Program-made: the position numbers and the translations under genes
Shown: one piece after another, positions 12,111 to 17,344 of the stretch
How the letters are laid out: the number at the start of each line of letters is the position of its first letter
Position numbering within the stretch: the stretch's first letter is position 1
Notes under the pieces: generated by a model
Database searches by the model: none
Seen by the model: the letters and a program-made list of their open reading frames with translations, nothing else
What the model was told of the DNA's origin: nothing
Source of the DNA: Thioalkalivibrio sp. ALJT
GTDB taxonomy: Bacteria > Pseudomonadota > Gammaproteobacteria > Ectothiorhodospirales > Ectothiorhodospiraceae
Direction of reading: 5' to 3'
Assembly (NCBI RefSeq): GCF_000381825.1
Contig: NZ_KB907122.1
Span: 310,001 to 374,000 of the forward strand
Length of the DNA: 64,000 nt

Positions 12111-12184
12111 TGGCTGGGGGACCAGGATTCGAACCTGGGTTGACGGAGTCAGAGTCCGTAGTCCTACCGCTAGACGATCCCCCA
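12111..12184 (-). tRNA. glnV-like: tRNA-Gln (anticodon CTG)
   Basis: Read on the minus strand, the 74-nt sequence folds into a full cloverleaf: acceptor TGGGGGA pairing TCCCCCA, D-arm with AGCGGTAGGAC, anticodon stem ACGGA/TCCGT around loop CTCTGAC (anticodon CTG), T-arm CCAGG-TTCGAAT-CCTGG, discriminator G and encoded CCA. The T1-A72 opening pair is typical of glutamine tRNAs. It lies 40 bp downstream of rpsI on the same strand and may be read through from the ribosomal operon. Confidence 0.96.
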
Positions 12185-12224: not shown

Positions 12225-12617
12225 TTAACGCTTCGAGTACTGGGTTGCACGACGGGCCTTGCGCAGGCCGATCTTCTTCCGCTCCACCTCGCGGGCGTCA
12301 CGGGTGAGGTGGCCGCCACGACGCAGCGGCGAGCGCATCTCTTCATTGTACTGCACCAGAGCGCGGGCAATGCCCAGACGGATCGCGCCAGCCTGACCGT
12401 TGCCACCACCACCTTTCACGGTTGCGACCACGTCAAAGTTATCGGTCGACTCGGTCGCCTCCAGCGGCTGACGTACCACCATGCGCGAGGTCTGACGGCC
12501 GAAGAACTCGTCCAGCGGCTTCTCGTTAACCGTGATGTTGCCCGTACCGGGACGCAGGAAGACGCGCGCAGCGGCGGTTTTGCGGCGGCCGGTGCCATAA
12601 TACTGATTGCTAGCCAT
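12225..12617 (-). CDS. rpsI: 30S ribosomal protein S9
   Basis: Component of the 30S head whose C-terminal tail reaches the P site. Exactly 130 aa, as in E. coli, starting [20 protein letters not shown] at ATG 12617 and ending with the basic tail [11 protein letters not shown]. The motif [19 protein letters not shown] is intact. It follows rplM by 31 bp on the same strand, the universal rplM-rpsI pair, under the promoter at 13121-13149. Confidence 0.98.
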
Positions 12618-12648
12618 TCGGATCGATTCCCTTGCTGTTTCTTGCGGC

Positions 12649-13077
12649 TCAGACTTCGAGCGGCTGCGGCTGCTGGGCCGTGTGCCGATGTTCGGTGCCG
12701 GCGTAGACCTTGAGCTTCTTGAACATGGCCCGGCCAAGCGGGTTGCGCGGCAACATGCCCTTGACGGCAAGCTCCAGCACTTTCTCCGGATGACGCTCGA
12801 TCATCTGGGTGAAGTTGGCTTCCTTGATACCACCCGGGTAGCCGGTGTGGTGGAAGTACTTCTTGTCCATGGCCTTGTTGCCGGAGACGCGAATCTTTTC
12901 CGCATTGATCACGACGATATAGTCGCCGGTGTCGACGTGCGGCGTGTACACGGGCTTGTGCTTCCCGCGCAGACGGCGTGCGATCTCCGTGGCGAGTCGC
13001 CCGAGGGTCTTGCCGTCGGCGTCGACGAGAAACCAGTCGCGTTCGACTTCTGCCGGCTTGGCGCTGATGGTGCTCAT
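12649..13077 (-). CDS. rplM: 50S ribosomal protein L13
   Basis: Early 50S assembly protein. 142 aa, the E. coli length, from ATG 13077 ([15 protein letters not shown]). The signature [20 protein letters not shown] and the [17 protein letters not shown] block are present. First gene of the rplM-rpsI operon. Longer upstream open frame is not coding. The ribosome site is modest (CGGAG). Confidence 0.98.
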
Positions 13078-13120
13078 GATGTTCGATGCTCCGAGGTCGG
13101 GGCGATTCAGAAAGCGCGCA

Positions 13121-13149
13121 ATAATAACGCTTCCCGTCAGCCGATTCAA
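13121..13149 (-). promoter_or_regulatory. Sigma-70 promoter of rplM-rpsI
   Basis: On the minus strand TTGAAT (13149-13144) and TATTAT (13126-13121) are separated by 17 bp, matching the -35/-10 consensus at 5/6 and 5/6 positions. A start near 13114 leaves a leader of about 37 nt before rplM. The remaining 13150-13391 region holds only the terminator described next. Confidence 0.75.
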
Positions 13150-13321
13150 GCGCGGCGGAAAGGAATTCCACCCGGCAAAACACGGACGCAGGACCGGACG
13201 GGCGCGCAAGGCGCCGCGCCGGCCCACGGACAGCTGTTCACGGGCCAGGCAGCGCCGGATTCGTCCGACAACGAACCAGGCGCCACCGTCCGTAAAGCGC
13301 GCACAATACAAAAATACAAAA

Positions 13322-13345
13322 GGGGGCACCCCGAAAGGTGCCCCC
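13322..13345 (-). terminator. Intrinsic terminator of the DUF4168 gene
   Basis: A 9-bp perfect stem GGGGGCACC/GGTGCCCCC with loop CCGAAA. On the minus strand it is followed by a T-rich CTTTTGTATTTTTG run. It lies 47 bp past the DUF4168 stop and insulates that gene from rplM. Confidence 0.85.
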
Positions 13346-13391
13346 TCCTGCCTGCCCCGGGCACCCGGCCCGGGCAAGCTGCTTCACCCGC

Positions 13392-13871
13392 TTACAGCTG
13401 AGCTTCGGCGCGTTCCTGCACTTCCTGCATCAGCTCGGGATCGTTCTGCAGCGCCATGGCGACTTCGTTGTATTCCTCGACGCTCATGCCCGCATCTTCG
13501 ACCGCGCTGACCATTTCGTCCTGCGCTTCCTGCTGCATGGACTGGGCCTCGGTCTCGTCCTCGGCGCTCTGCAGGCGGTTGGCGAAGTCCTCGCGCACTT
13601 CCTGCACGGCAACGAAGGCCGACACGAAGGTGTCAATGTCTTGCTCGCTCAGGTCCACCGACGGCGCTTCCTGCATCGGGGCACCGCCCTGTGCGGCACC
13701 ACCCTGGGCACCGGCACCACCTTCATGGGCCGGCGGCTGTCCACCCTGGGCACCGCCCATGTCACCGCCGCCAGCACCACCTTCGGCACCGCCATACTGG
13801 GCTGAGGCCGCGCCGCCAACGGCGAACAGGGAGGTAAGGGCCAGGGTGAGGATCGTCTTGCGCATGTTCAT
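13392..13871 (-). CDS. Exported DUF4168 protein, probable sigma-54-controlled effector
   Basis: A 159-aa periplasmic protein. Residues 1-24 form a Sec signal peptide (MNMRKTILTLALTSLFAVGG then ASA-Q cleavage). Residues 26-66 are a Gly/Gln/Pro-rich linker with several Met, and residues about 70-159 are the acidic helical DUF4168 domain (ending with the GMSVEEYNEVA motif and an NDPELMQEV block). Family function is unknown. AAGGAG stands 9 nt before ATG 13871. A sigma-54 promoter and paired palindromes lie upstream, next to an NtrC-type activator and kinase on the same strand, so this is the likely output of that two-component system, in the way ZraP is of ZraSR. It is not related to ZraP in sequence as far as I can see. 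Confidence 0.83.
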   Translation of the reverse strand: MNMRKTILTLALTSLFAVGGAASAQYGGAEGGAGGGDMGGAQGGQPPAHEGGAGAQGGAAQGGAPMQEAPSVDLSEQDIDTFVSAFVAVQEVREDFANRLQSAEDETEAQSMQQEAQDEMVSAVEDAGMSVEEYNEVAMALQNDPELMQEVQERAEAQL

Positions 13872-14021
13872 GTTTAAGCTCCTTATTGGCTTTGAGGATC
13901 GTTCCGAACGGGTGTCGGGATCGCATCCCGCCAAGCGTTCAACCCGTTTTCTTCGCAACGTATGGAGGCCGATTCTCCCGGTTGGGTCCGGTCGGCGGCC
14001 CTGGTTGCTGCTCAAAGCAAA

Positions 14022-14173: not shown

Positions 14174-15590
14174 ACGTCGGGTCGATTTCTCCGAGCTTGC
14201 GATAAAGGGTCTTGCGGCCAATCCCGAGGATTCGCGCCGCGCGCTGCTTGTTGCCGCCCACGTGTTCCAGTACCCGCTGGATGTATTCGCGTTCGCGCTC
14301 CTCCAGCGTCGGCCACTGGGTGTCATCCGCCACACCCGGCACCGGGGCACCCCCCGCATCCGCCGGCCCAGTTGCGGCGGGGTCAGTCGCGGCCCCTCCC
14401 TGCTCGAAGATCCGCTCGGGCAGATCGCAGGGCTCGATGACCTCGCCCGCCGCCAGCGTGGCGGCCCGCTCCATCAGGCTCGCCAGTTCGCGCACGTTGC
14501 CGGGGAACGGGTAACGCAGCAGGGCACGCAGCGCCTCCGGGCTCAAGCGCCGTTCGGGGAGACCTCGGGCCAGACTCTGTTCGCGCAGGAACTGCAGCGC
14601 CAATCGCTCGACATCCTCGCCACGCTCGCGCAGTGGCGGGATCTCGATACGAAAGGTCTCCAGCCGGTAATACAGATCCTCGCGGAAACGCCCCTCGGCG
14701 ATGTGCGCCTGCAGGTCCTGGTGCGTAGCGGCCACGATGCGCACGTTCGTGGCGATCTCCTCGTTGGACCCCACGGGCCGCACGCGGCCATCTTGCAGTA
14801 GCCGCAGCAGCTTGCTCTGCATCGCCGCAGGCATCTCCGCGATCTCGTCCAGGAACAGGGTCCCCCCGTCTGCCTCGGTGAACAGGCCACGGCGCGCCCC
14901 CCGGGCCCCGCTGAAGGCACCGGCGACATGCCCCAGCAATTCCGACTCCAGCAGGGCTTCGGGGATGCCCGCACAGTTGATCGCGACAAACGGCCCCTCG
15001 GCGCGCGGACTCTCGGCGTGCAGGGCACGGGCTACCAGCTCCTTGCCGGTACCGGATTCGCCGGTAATCAGCACACTGCCGTCGGCCACCGCAATCCGCC
15101 GAATCAGATCGAACAACCGCAACATGGCCGGGCTGGAACCCTGCATGCCATGGAAGCCGTTACCCTGCGCCAGCACCTCCCGGTAACGGCGGACCTCGGC
15201 CTGCAACTGGCGGGCCTCAGTGACGCGGTCGGCAGCCAGACGCAGATGGTCCAGATCCACCGGCTTGGTAAGGAAGTCGTCGGCCCCGGCCTTCAGCGCG
15301 GTCACCGCCTGATCAATGGTCCCGAAACCGGTCAGCATGATGAATCCGGGGATGGGTGCCAGCGCCCGCGTCACCTCCAGCACCCGGAAGCCGTCAGCCC
15401 CCGGCAGGCGCAGATCACTGACTACCAGACTGAAGGTATGCTGCGCCAGCACCTGTTCGGCATCCTCGGCGCTGCCCACTGCGGTCACGGCATATCCCGC
15501 CTCGCTCAGCTCCTCCGCCAGGAGCTCGCGGTGGCCTCGATCGTCTTCCACAACCAGGACCGACTCCCGGGTCTGCATCCGGCCACTCAT
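14172..15590 (-). CDS. Sigma-54-dependent response regulator (NtrC family)
   Basis: A 472-aa activator with three domains. Receiver, residues 10-125: acidic pair E15/D16/D17, phosphoacceptor D59 in VVSDLRLPG and K109. AAA+ domain, about 145-380: Walker A GESGTGKE (177-184), Walker B LFLDEI (245-250) and the sigma-54 contact loop reading GAFSGA (224-229) rather than GAFTGA. Fis-type helix-turn-helix, about 435-470, with NKQRAARILGIGRKTLYRKL. The start ATG overlaps the kinase stop by 4 nt (ATGA), so kinase and regulator are one translationally coupled operon. Target most likely the adjacent DUF4168 promoter. The signal is unknown. Confidence 0.93.
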   Translation of the reverse strand: MSGRMQTRESVLVVEDDRGHRELLAEELSEAGYAVTAVGSAEDAEQVLAQHTFSLVVSDLRLPGADGFRVLEVTRALAPIPGFIMLTGFGTIDQAVTALKAGADDFLTKPVDLDHLRLAADRVTEARQLQAEVRRYREVLAQGNGFHGMQGSSPAMLRLFDLIRRIAVADGSVLITGESGTGKELVARALHAESPRAEGPFVAINCAGIPEALLESELLGHVAGAFSGARGARRGLFTEADGGTLFLDEIAEMPAAMQSKLLRLLQDGRVRPVGSNEEIATNVRIVAATHQDLQAHIAEGRFREDLYYRLETFRIEIPPLRERGEDVERLALQFLREQSLARGLPERRLSPEALRALLRYPFPGNVRELASLMERAATLAAGEVIEPCDLPERIFEQGGAATDPAATGPADAGGAPVPGVADDTQWPTLEEREREYIQRVLEHVGGNKQRAARILGIGRKTLYRKLGEIDPT

Positions 15591-17083
15591 CGGGACATCT
15601 CCTCGTCACTGGTGCCAGTGCCTTTGCGATCCCCGGGTTCCATTGGCAGGGTCACGATGAAGCGCGTCGCCCCCGGCACACTGCGATCCAGCTGCACCTG
15701 TCCGCCGTGATCTTCCAGGGCGACCTGCACCACGGCGAGGCCGAGCCCGGTGCCCTGACCGGTCGGCTTGGTGGTGTAGAACGGTTCGAACAGGCGCTCG
15801 GCCTGGTCATCCCCAATCCCGCGCCCGGCCTCGGGGCCATCATCCGCCACCACCAGCTCGACGCCCTCCGGCACCGCCCTCCAGCTCACCTCCACCGCGC
15901 GTGCCGCCGCCTGGGACGCGTTCTCCAGCAGATTCTCCAGGGCCTGCCCCAGACGCAGCGGATCGGCCACCAGCGTCAGCGGTTCGCCATCCACGTGAAA
16001 CGCCACTGCCCGATCGCAATGACGGGAGCGGACGCGTTCGATCAGATCCGCCACCAGCGTCCCCAGCTCCAGCGATCGCTGCTGCAGCGGGTTACGCCGG
16101 GCGAAGTCCAGCAACTGGCGCACAATCACCTCCACCCGCTCCAGCTCGGCCTTCAGGGCCTGCATCTCCTTGCGCGCCGGATCCCCGTCCGGCAGGTGCC
16201 GGATCGCGCGCTGCACCCGCCCCGCAATAATGCCCAGGGGCGTCCCCAGCTCATGCGCCACCCCGGCCGCAAGCTGGCCGATGGCCGCCAGCTTTTCCGA
16301 GTGCCGCAATTTCTCCTCCAGGCGCACCTGTTCACGGCGCTGAACCTCCAGTTCAGCCTCCGAGGCCTCGCGCCGCTCCATCATGCGATTCATCGACACC
16401 GCCAGCCCGCGCAACTCGGCCGGCCCGACCTCCGGTGCGCGCAGACCACGTTGGCCCTCCCCGATCGCACCCATGGCGGCCATCAAGCGCGAGACATGCC
16501 GGCCCACCGCGCGGTGATAGCCGAACAGGACCACCAGCAGGAACAGCCCGGACACCGCCAGCAACAACACCAGGCCCTGGCCCTGCAACTGAGTCACATA
16601 GGCTCGGAACGGGGTCACATCGCGGGTCACCTGCAACAATCCGACAATCCGCCCGGCGGGATCGGACAGCGGCAGAAAAAAGGAGAAGGTCTCGCGGCCC
16701 CGGTGCTCGCCAAAGGCCCCGAGACTCCCGGTTTCGCTGATCACCCGCGCCTCCCCGCGCCGCTGCAGAGTCGGACTCGGGGGACCACTGGCTGCCACCA
16801 TACGTCCGTCGGCATCGTAGACGTAGACCCCGAATACCTCCTCGATCTGAAACAGCGAATCCAGCGACTGCTGCACCGCCGCGGCATCGTCCTGCAGCAT
16901 CGCACTGGCCACCGGCAGACGGATCGAGCGCGCGACCAGCTCGATATCCTCCTGCATACGGTTCTCCATCTGTGTCTGGAATTCCTGCAGTCCGAGCGCC
17001 ACTACGGCCGCCATCAGCAGCAACAGCGGTAACAACACGAAGGACAACACTGCGGTACGCAGACTGTTCAGACGTCGGGTCAT
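15587..17083 (-). CDS. Membrane sensor histidine kinase (NtrB/ZraS-like)
   Basis: A 498-aa inner-membrane kinase. TM1 about residues 8-32, a periplasmic sensor of about 135 residues (33-168) predicted from its content to be a single Cache/PAS-like fold, TM2 about 169-189, HAMP about 190-245, then the H-box with H277 in GVAHELGTPLG, N-box ENLLENASQAA near 390, and G-boxes DDGPEAGRG and GQGTGLGLAVV. HELGTPLG is typical of the kinases that partner NtrC-like regulators. The sensor lacks an evident metal-binding cluster, so the stimulus cannot be read. It is coupled to the regulator gene; a terminator at 17213 separates it from upstream transcription. Confidence 0.93.
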   Translation of the reverse strand: MTRRLNSLRTAVLSFVLLPLLLLMAAVVALGLQEFQTQMENRMQEDIELVARSIRLPVASAMLQDDAAAVQQSLDSLFQIEEVFGVYVYDADGRMVAASGPPSPTLQRRGEARVISETGSLGAFGEHRGRETFSFFLPLSDPAGRIVGLLQVTRDVTPFRAYVTQLQGQGLVLLLAVSGLFLLVVLFGYHRAVGRHVSRLMAAMGAIGEGQRGLRAPEVGPAELRGLAVSMNRMMERREASEAELEVQRREQVRLEEKLRHSEKLAAIGQLAAGVAHELGTPLGIIAGRVQRAIRHLPDGDPARKEMQALKAELERVEVIVRQLLDFARRNPLQQRSLELGTLVADLIERVRSRHCDRAVAFHVDGEPLTLVADPLRLGQALENLLENASQAAARAVEVSWRAVPEGVELVVADDGPEAGRGIGDDQAERLFEPFYTTKPTGQGTGLGLAVVQVALEDHGGQVQLDRSVPGATRFIVTLPMEPGDRKGTGTSDEEMSR

Positions 17084-17212: not shown

Positions 17213-17309
17213 CAAAAAAAACGCGGGCCAGAGCCCGCGCCAAGAAAACCACCAAAGGAGGATGGAGGAGTCCACTAACCGCTGACAGGGGGAGGTCAGC
17301 AATTAGCGT
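17213..17309 (-). ncRNA. Probable small RNA or terminated leader with C-rich loops
   Basis: On the minus strand a promoter-like TTGACA is followed by about 97 nt that end in a strong intrinsic terminator (stem CGCGGGC/GCCCGCG, then eight T). The 5' part folds into a hairpin with stem GCTGAC/GTCAGC (17300-17281), loop CTCCCCCT, and an outer CTAA/TTAG pairing. Between the hairpins lies an unpaired ACTCCTCCATCCTCCTTTGG stretch. CUCC-rich loops are the mark of anti-Shine-Dalgarno regulatory RNAs. It stands 130 nt upstream of the kinase ATG on the same strand, so a premature-termination leader of the kinase operon is the alternative. No similar known RNA comes to mind. Confidence 0.45.
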
Positions 17310-17315
17310 ATGCGA

Positions 17316-17344
17316 ATCTTCTAATATGGAGATGCTGGTGTCAA
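17316..17344 (-). promoter_or_regulatory. Promoter of the candidate small RNA
   Basis: Perfect -35 TTGACA (17344-17339) followed 17 bp later by GAAGAT (17321-17316), a weak -10 matching at the two most important positions. A start near 17309 is predicted. Confidence 0.4.

Follow-up and report, generated by a model that had tools for sequence, protein, structure and literature searches.

NmsRA and NmsRB of Neisseria (also NgncR_162/163 or RcoF; Rfam family RF02877) act on ribosome binding site (RBS) regions through the loop of their second stem-loop (SL2) and the linker between SL1 and SL2, and anti-Shine-Dalgarno (anti-SD) mutants and reporter tests have been reported for these RNAs (PMC5362039, PMC9973317). 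The CU-rich double-hairpin RNAs of Burkholderia (bdhR1/ncS27) are filed as RF02278 (PMC5688073), and RBS-directed pairing has been reported or predicted for relatives in this family (PMC5688073, PMC11722255). One of them, S17S of Bordetella, is reported to depend on Hfq, to be processed by RNase E and to repress by pairing with ribosome binding sites, and has a 27-nt region that is conserved in Betaproteobacteria (PMC11722255).

Here we computed the RNA anatomy, conservation, covariation and homology of a locus found in a window of 64,000 nt of Thioalkalivibrio sp. ALJT (GCF_000381825.1, NZ_KB907122.1, positions 310,001-374,000, forward strand), as well as a conserved 20-nt target complementarity and the presence of hfq. 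Judged from its sequence, the feature is a real small RNA (sRNA) whose expression and regulation are predicted, and its best reading is that of a diverged gammaproteobacterial sister of the RF02278/NmsR anti-SD sRNAs. Hairpin sRNAs exposing CUCC anti-SD loops also occur in another class, the Alphaproteobacteria, where the “cuckoo” and CcsR RNAs lie at other loci than this sRNA.

Results

The whole feature, promoter and sRNA together, is encoded on the minus strand, at 17344-17213 of the window. A preliminary description had proposed a short RNA of about 97 nt assembled from a TTGACA box, a hairpin, a linker and a GC terminator that ends in eight T, and all these elements are indeed present on the minus strand. 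The -35 box TTGACA is at 17339-17344; almost every relative keeps TTGAC, with a constant spacing to TATTAG. The sRNA itself covers 17309-17213, its 5' end being placed from the promoter and its 3' end from the terminator, so that the length of 97 nt counts from a presumed start at about 17309, about 7 nt past the -10 region. The predicted fold consists of three hairpins, SL1 (17308-17273), a weak SL2 (17268-17249) and the terminator SL3, and reaches -42.4 kcal/mol compared to -24.9 ± 2.9 in shuffled sequences (z -5.95; none of 200 shuffles as good).

SL1 is a 14-bp hairpin (arms 17308-17295 and 17286-17273) with the loop CUCCCCCU at 17294-17287, variable in sequence and conserved as a stem. 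Next come ACUCCUCCAUCCUCCUUUGGUGG, a short linker rich in U and the GC-rich terminator with its eight T. Within the linker and second hairpin, which together occupy 17271-17249, two anti-SD sites can be told apart. The first, SSR1 or site 1, is the linker ACUCCUCCA (17271-17263), which is near-invariant in 40 distinct sequences and aligns with CUCCUCCA of RF02278. The second, SL2 or site 2, reads CCUCCA-UCCUCCUU-UGGUGG (17268-17249) and forms a weak stem with the anti-SD loop UCCUCCUU, its alignment columns being invariant. SL3 (17241-17214) is an intrinsic terminator, GCGCGGGCUCUGGCCCGCGU plus U8, with its stem at 17241-17222 and T8 at 17221-17214; a terminator scan picks it up at 17241-17220.

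A simple sigma-70 scan passes no promoter at the locus since its -10 region is non-consensus (GAAGAT, 17321-17316). A promoter is supported by conservation instead, as TTGACN-N12-TATTAG occurs with the exact spacer in 51 of 71 distinct upstream sequences. Over the -10 region lies the conserved element TATTAGAAGATTCGCATA (17326-17309, minus strand), a degenerate form of a TATTAGAA-N2-TTCTAATA dyad. Of the 52 sequences that contain ATATTAGA, 50 retain a T at the -10 end and 50 an A close to the end of the dyad, and near-perfect dyads are found at the loci L177 of Thiobacillus (TATTAGAAAATTCTAATA) and L166 (TATTAGAGAATTCTAATA). Because this conservation exceeds what a sigma-70 promoter needs, we infer that TATTAGAA-N2-TTCTAATA is the operator of a dedicated regulator; a pattern search for more operator-like sites gave few and inconsistent matches, which did not name the regulator. 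Some genera have other promoter types with TGCAGTGCAGCA. A different promoter, TTGACATGTGCAGTGCAGCATA or similar, with a TGCAGTGCAGCA repeat is found upstream of L112, L116, L117, L119, L129, L130 and L178, and this repeat resembles operators of the PhaR type (polyhydroxybutyrate).

A blastn search for the 146-nt region recovered it from nearly all the genus and family genomes covered, and other families of the class have it as well; plasmids and phages yielded nothing useful. The alignment reveals a core of 22 nt, CUCCUCCAUCCUCCUUUGGUGG, with hardly any change between Thioalkalivibrio and other families; variation is seen in the flanks and in SL1. The terminator has five pairs changed on both sides (36 cells compared to 13.9 ± 2.9 when shuffled; slid controls at most 15). 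In SL1, 6 of 12 pairs are changed on both sides (19 cells compared to 6.0 ± 2.2 when shuffled) and pairing is kept in 90.8% of the cells (slid controls at most 64.5%). The pairs of the SL2 stem hardly vary, so that covariation is uninformative there; at L128, two of them are broken and CCUCCUUUGGUGG is retained, which hints that sequence may weigh more than the SL2 stem. The anti-SD sRNA announced by the preliminary description is thus borne out: the compensatory changes for which a covariance test had been suggested are found in the terminator and SL1, and near relatives do not diverge at the expense of the stems. Of the anti-SD loops and linker that it had described, the linker and loop 2 are conserved, but the CUCC of loop 1 is not, this loop being mostly a C-run in the genus and often not C-rich in other families.

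We then asked how far the sRNA extends, using a covariance model of 58 positions (R1) made with 40 sequences from Thioalkalivibrio, the family and the class. R1 scores 74.4 bits (E 1.7e-15) at the window locus, whose sequence is among the 40 used to build it. It matches 186 of 370 genomes of the class at E<=0.1 and, by a hand count of the listed best E-values, about 106 of 370 at E<=1e-6; the class is meant in the GTDB sense, with Betaproteobacteria inside, and 106/370 is not a share of Gammaproteobacteria in the narrow sense. The matches with names are Thioalkalivibrio AKL19, whose kinase shares 85% identity with the one encoded beside the window locus and places the window in a Thioalkalivibrio genome, as well as an Ectothiorhodospiraceae MAG, a Gammaproteobacteria MAG and a Thiobacillus MAG. 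Outside the class, R1 gave weak matches alone, with E no better than about 5e-5. Matches below about 35 bits include other sRNAs: L174 (genome G595; 33.6 bits) is PrrF, an iron sRNA that reaches 157.9 bits with its Rfam model and slightly resembles the R1 family. Literature searches, weak on subscription papers, returned no report of this sRNA in Gammaproteobacteria.

Several genomes carry two to several neighbouring copies, namely G375 (C1/C22; 7 matches in this genome), G301 (C3:141781-142057), G209 (C27) and G178 (C83), an arrangement that resembles the sibling pair of Neisseria. A second related sRNA-like copy is also seen in some Thioalkalivibrio, at G004:C3:89457-89512 (L227; minus strand CUUCCUCCUUUGGUGGUCUUUUUGGGCCCGGG..CCCGGGCCUUUUU), G022:C25:26253-26272 and G017:C51:13027-13090 (L185; 43.4 bits with RF02278).

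At gathering thresholds, Rfam finds nothing at the sRNA locus; the sole match in the window is a tRNA gene (12114-12184, minus strand). At permissive thresholds the best models at the locus are RF02278, ncS16 and NmsRb, all full length and all below cut-off. Ranked by score, the Rfam matches here have 28.1 bits (cut-off 50), 24.7 bits (cut-off 52) and 22.6 bits (cut-off 48). RF02278 reaches 28.1 bits (E 0.00028 in 121 nt) and aligns over model positions 1-64, including CUCCUCCA, the anti-SD loop, UGGUGG and the terminator. In most relatives its best match in the genome is this same locus, also at full length, and 0 of 58 are above cut-off. NmsR/RF02877 stays at 24.7 bits, with a full-length alignment (1-91) that spans SL1, linker, SL2 and terminator and that agrees with the fold in the SL1-SSR1-SL2-SL3 layout with two anti-SD stretches. 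No tandem sibling as in NmsR was found in the own genome, where R1 has one strong match and a next best of 26.4 bits. As both gathering thresholds are missed, we do not file the sRNA in RF02278 or RF02877.

The likeness to RF02278 and NmsR could be convergent: terminator-ended anti-SD RNAs rich in C and U might evolve time and again, with a separate invention in this lineage. The sub-threshold scores, the different terminator and SL1, a loop 2 that is 4 nt shorter and the presence of PrrF (33.6 bits) among the weak R1 matches would fit such an origin. However, we found graded intermediates. First, the loci L166, L168, L170, L171 and L177 (Thiobacillus) score 52.4 to 65.6 bits with RF02278, above its cut-off. 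Second, R1, which was built without them, finds them at 36.2 to 57.4 bits, with E-values of 7e-7 or stronger for L166, L168 and L177 and of 2.7e-6 for L170 and L171. Third, they share CUCCUCCA-n-UCCUCCUUUGGUGG, and the TATTAGAA element also stands upstream of the Thiobacillus copy, as does TATTAGAG upstream of L166. Since the intermediates score with both models, the gap between this sRNA and RF02278 is closed, and convergence appears unlikely. In addition, the reverse complement of the S17 primer published in PMC11722255 is TGGTGGATTTAGCCC, the same junction as in L168.

In the Thioalkalivibrio loci that we examined with their flanks, the sRNA is flanked on one side by a divergent metallo-hydrolase gene and on the other by the gene of a sensor histidine kinase (CHASE8/HAMP/HisKA/HATPase; 15587-17083, minus strand), which lies outside the RNA and is a neighbour in this genus only. 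The kinase is on the same strand, with its ATG at 17083, 130 nt downstream of the sRNA, and this order is kept in all these loci. Such an arrangement would suit a cis-acting leader or attenuator, the other function that the preliminary description had considered, whose hairpins and terminator would govern read-through into the operon of the kinase and a sigma-54 response regulator. Outside the genus, however, the same RNA with its core lies beside unrelated genes, between tgt and queA (L126, L144), upstream of rplM (L123, L127), upstream of purH (L112) or elsewhere, and no such kinase was found nearby. We found no conserved tie to a regulated downstream gene, as an attenuator or riboswitch would have; the terminator is strong, no competing antiterminator is seen in the fold, and complementarity to the kinase leader is slight (-2.0 kcal/mol). 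An attenuator is thus very improbable, and the change of flanking genes outside the genus argues for a trans-acting sRNA instead of a kinase-operon leader.

Downstream of the response regulator, the window holds rpsI, rplM and the DUF4168 gene (12225-13900). The latter, taken at first for a direct neighbour of the sRNA, has its ATG at 13871, 3.3 kb away and behind the kinase and response regulator genes. With rplM-rpsI just 4 kb downstream in the window and the sRNA directly upstream of rplM in L123 and L127, our data suggest that the sRNA has long had its place next to rplM and that the kinase, regulator and DUF4168 genes were inserted later, which may have split the locus.

To predict targets, we combined genome-wide blastn and pattern searches with an ungapped helix scan of 955,518 positions, that is both strands of about 480 kb or about 18% of the genome. 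The scan replaced a gapped duplex scan which included part of the terminator and was swamped by GC-rich chance pairing. Beside the sRNA gene, the best blastn match in the own genome is G000:C2:225031-225050, which recurs in the genus; in the direction 225050-225031 it belongs to the leader of an OMPP1/FadL/TodX gene (PF03349, E 1.8e-20). There, CAAGAAGACCACCAAAGGAG of the FadL mRNA pairs with CUCCUUUGGUGGUUUUCUUG of the sRNA (17260-17241, minus strand); the pairing spans 20 nt, a single G-U among them, and takes in the SD. In the helix scan this site forms a contiguous 20-bp helix of -37.1 kcal/mol, the next best, the sRNA gene itself excepted, being -27.2. An SD-complementary RNA pairs to some degree with many leaders. 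When the folding of both RNAs was counted, the FadL interaction reached a ddG of -26.3 kcal/mol compared to -6.4 ± 3.4 for shuffled leaders (minimum -19.8) and beat all 592 sampled ORF starts. The leaders of the DUF4168, kinase and metallo-hydrolase (MBL) genes gave only -3.4, -2.0 and -4.0 kcal/mol, and the AAGGAG of the DUF4168 gene, singled out earlier as a possible pairing site, is a 6-nt generic SD.

The FadL site is also conserved. In 15 Thioalkalivibrio leaders, which form one clade and do not stand for many independent events, 20 of 20 positions are invariant in the site, compared to 9 of 40 upstream, 2 of 8 downstream and 30 of 45 at the gene start. Among 30 genomes of the genus, those with the exact site all carry the sRNA linker UUUUCUUG, and the site was not found in the clades with the linker UUUAAUUG or similar, a co-occurrence that again reflects one clade and not many independent events. 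The extended site was not seen in the FadL leader of the members G010, G012, G016, G018, G031, G034 and G036. Just upstream of the site, AACAACAAGAAG resembles an Hfq motif of the ARN type. The gene after FadL, in the same direction (315 aa, no Pfam match; in L210), has AAAGGAGGAU-GCC-AUG (G000:C2:223525-223540), which is complementary to the sRNA loop and present in several relatives too, and is a weaker candidate. Together, these data make the OMPP1/FadL-type outer-membrane transporter gene the clearest predicted target in Thioalkalivibrio.

Discussion

The locus has an intrinsic terminator with a U-tract and, by conservation only, its own promoter, and hfq is present in the genome (100.8 bits). 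Most probably it encodes an independent trans-acting sRNA of about 97 nt, sister of RF02278/NmsR and most likely Hfq-dependent, that represses selected mRNAs by anti-SD pairing. The sRNA would have a regulated promoter to itself and owe its stability to Hfq. Its exposed anti-SD stretches, ACUCCUCCA, UCCUCCUUU and the following GGUGGUUUUCUUG, would then pair with ribosome binding sites, either through SSR1 or through the SL2 loop with opening of SL2, and translation of the targets would be blocked. In this chain, it is a prediction that the sRNA is transcribed, binds Hfq and represses its targets, and that a dedicated regulator acts on the TATTAGAA element.

The core is an SD complement, and RF02278 RNAs of Burkholderia inhibit growth when overexpressed (PMC5688073, PMC11722255), so one may wonder whether the sRNA is a global anti-SD RNA that blocks many ribosome binding sites at once, slows translation and inhibits growth like the “toxic sRNA” of RF02278. 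We consider this improbable, as the invariant region reaches past the anti-SD core (UUUGGUGG), one leader has a conserved, extended complementarity of 20 nt, and the homologue S17S showed little toxicity in E. coli and has selected genes as its targets (PMC11722255). A sponge RNA that sequesters a protein, instead of a base-pairing sRNA, could also have such motif repeats and such a strong hairpin. The CsrA motif is a GGA in a loop; this pattern is absent here, the invariance suits base pairing to the SD and a conserved complementary mRNA exists, which together leave a sponge hardly credible.

As far as sequence comparison tells, RNAs hitherto described in betaproteobacteria have an unlisted cousin in a sulfur bacterium of salt lakes and in many gammaproteobacteria related to it. 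This joins an unlisted gammaproteobacterial set with RNAs on which work in Neisseria, Burkholderia and Bordetella has run separately, and supplies a covariance model that finds these sRNAs. The target with its conserved 20-nt pairing is directly testable, and in one sRNA with an invariant core and a clade-specific linker both parts can be dissected. More tentatively, and with less than even confidence, we propose a single, vertically inherited anti-SD sRNA lineage that would predate the split between Beta- and Gammaproteobacteria, is unannotated in most Gammaproteobacteria and, under the conserved TATTAGAA-N2-TTCTAATA operator, might regulate nutrient uptake and central metabolism across the class, its linkers being adapted in each lineage to particular targets such as FadL.

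Compared to known systems, the sRNA shares with RF02278 site 1 (CUCCUCCA), the weak anti-SD-loop hairpin ending in UGGUGG, the intrinsic terminator with a U-tract and the stand-alone genes. It differs from that family by an extra 5' hairpin (SL1) within the transcript, by a loop 2 that is 4 nt shorter than the consensus, by the terminator sequence and by its occurrence in Gammaproteobacteria. With NmsRA/NmsRB, which are under RelA control in Neisseria, it has in common SL1, the single-stranded anti-SD, an SL2 with a CUCCUUU loop, the linker and the terminator, as well as a TTGACA promoter and a length of about 90 nt, so that its layout, SL1-SSR1-SL2-SSR2-SL3, is that of NmsR. In contrast to the tandem genes of Neisseria, whose targets are TCA, methylcitrate and amino-acid genes, the sRNA is single-copy here and its predicted target is FadL.
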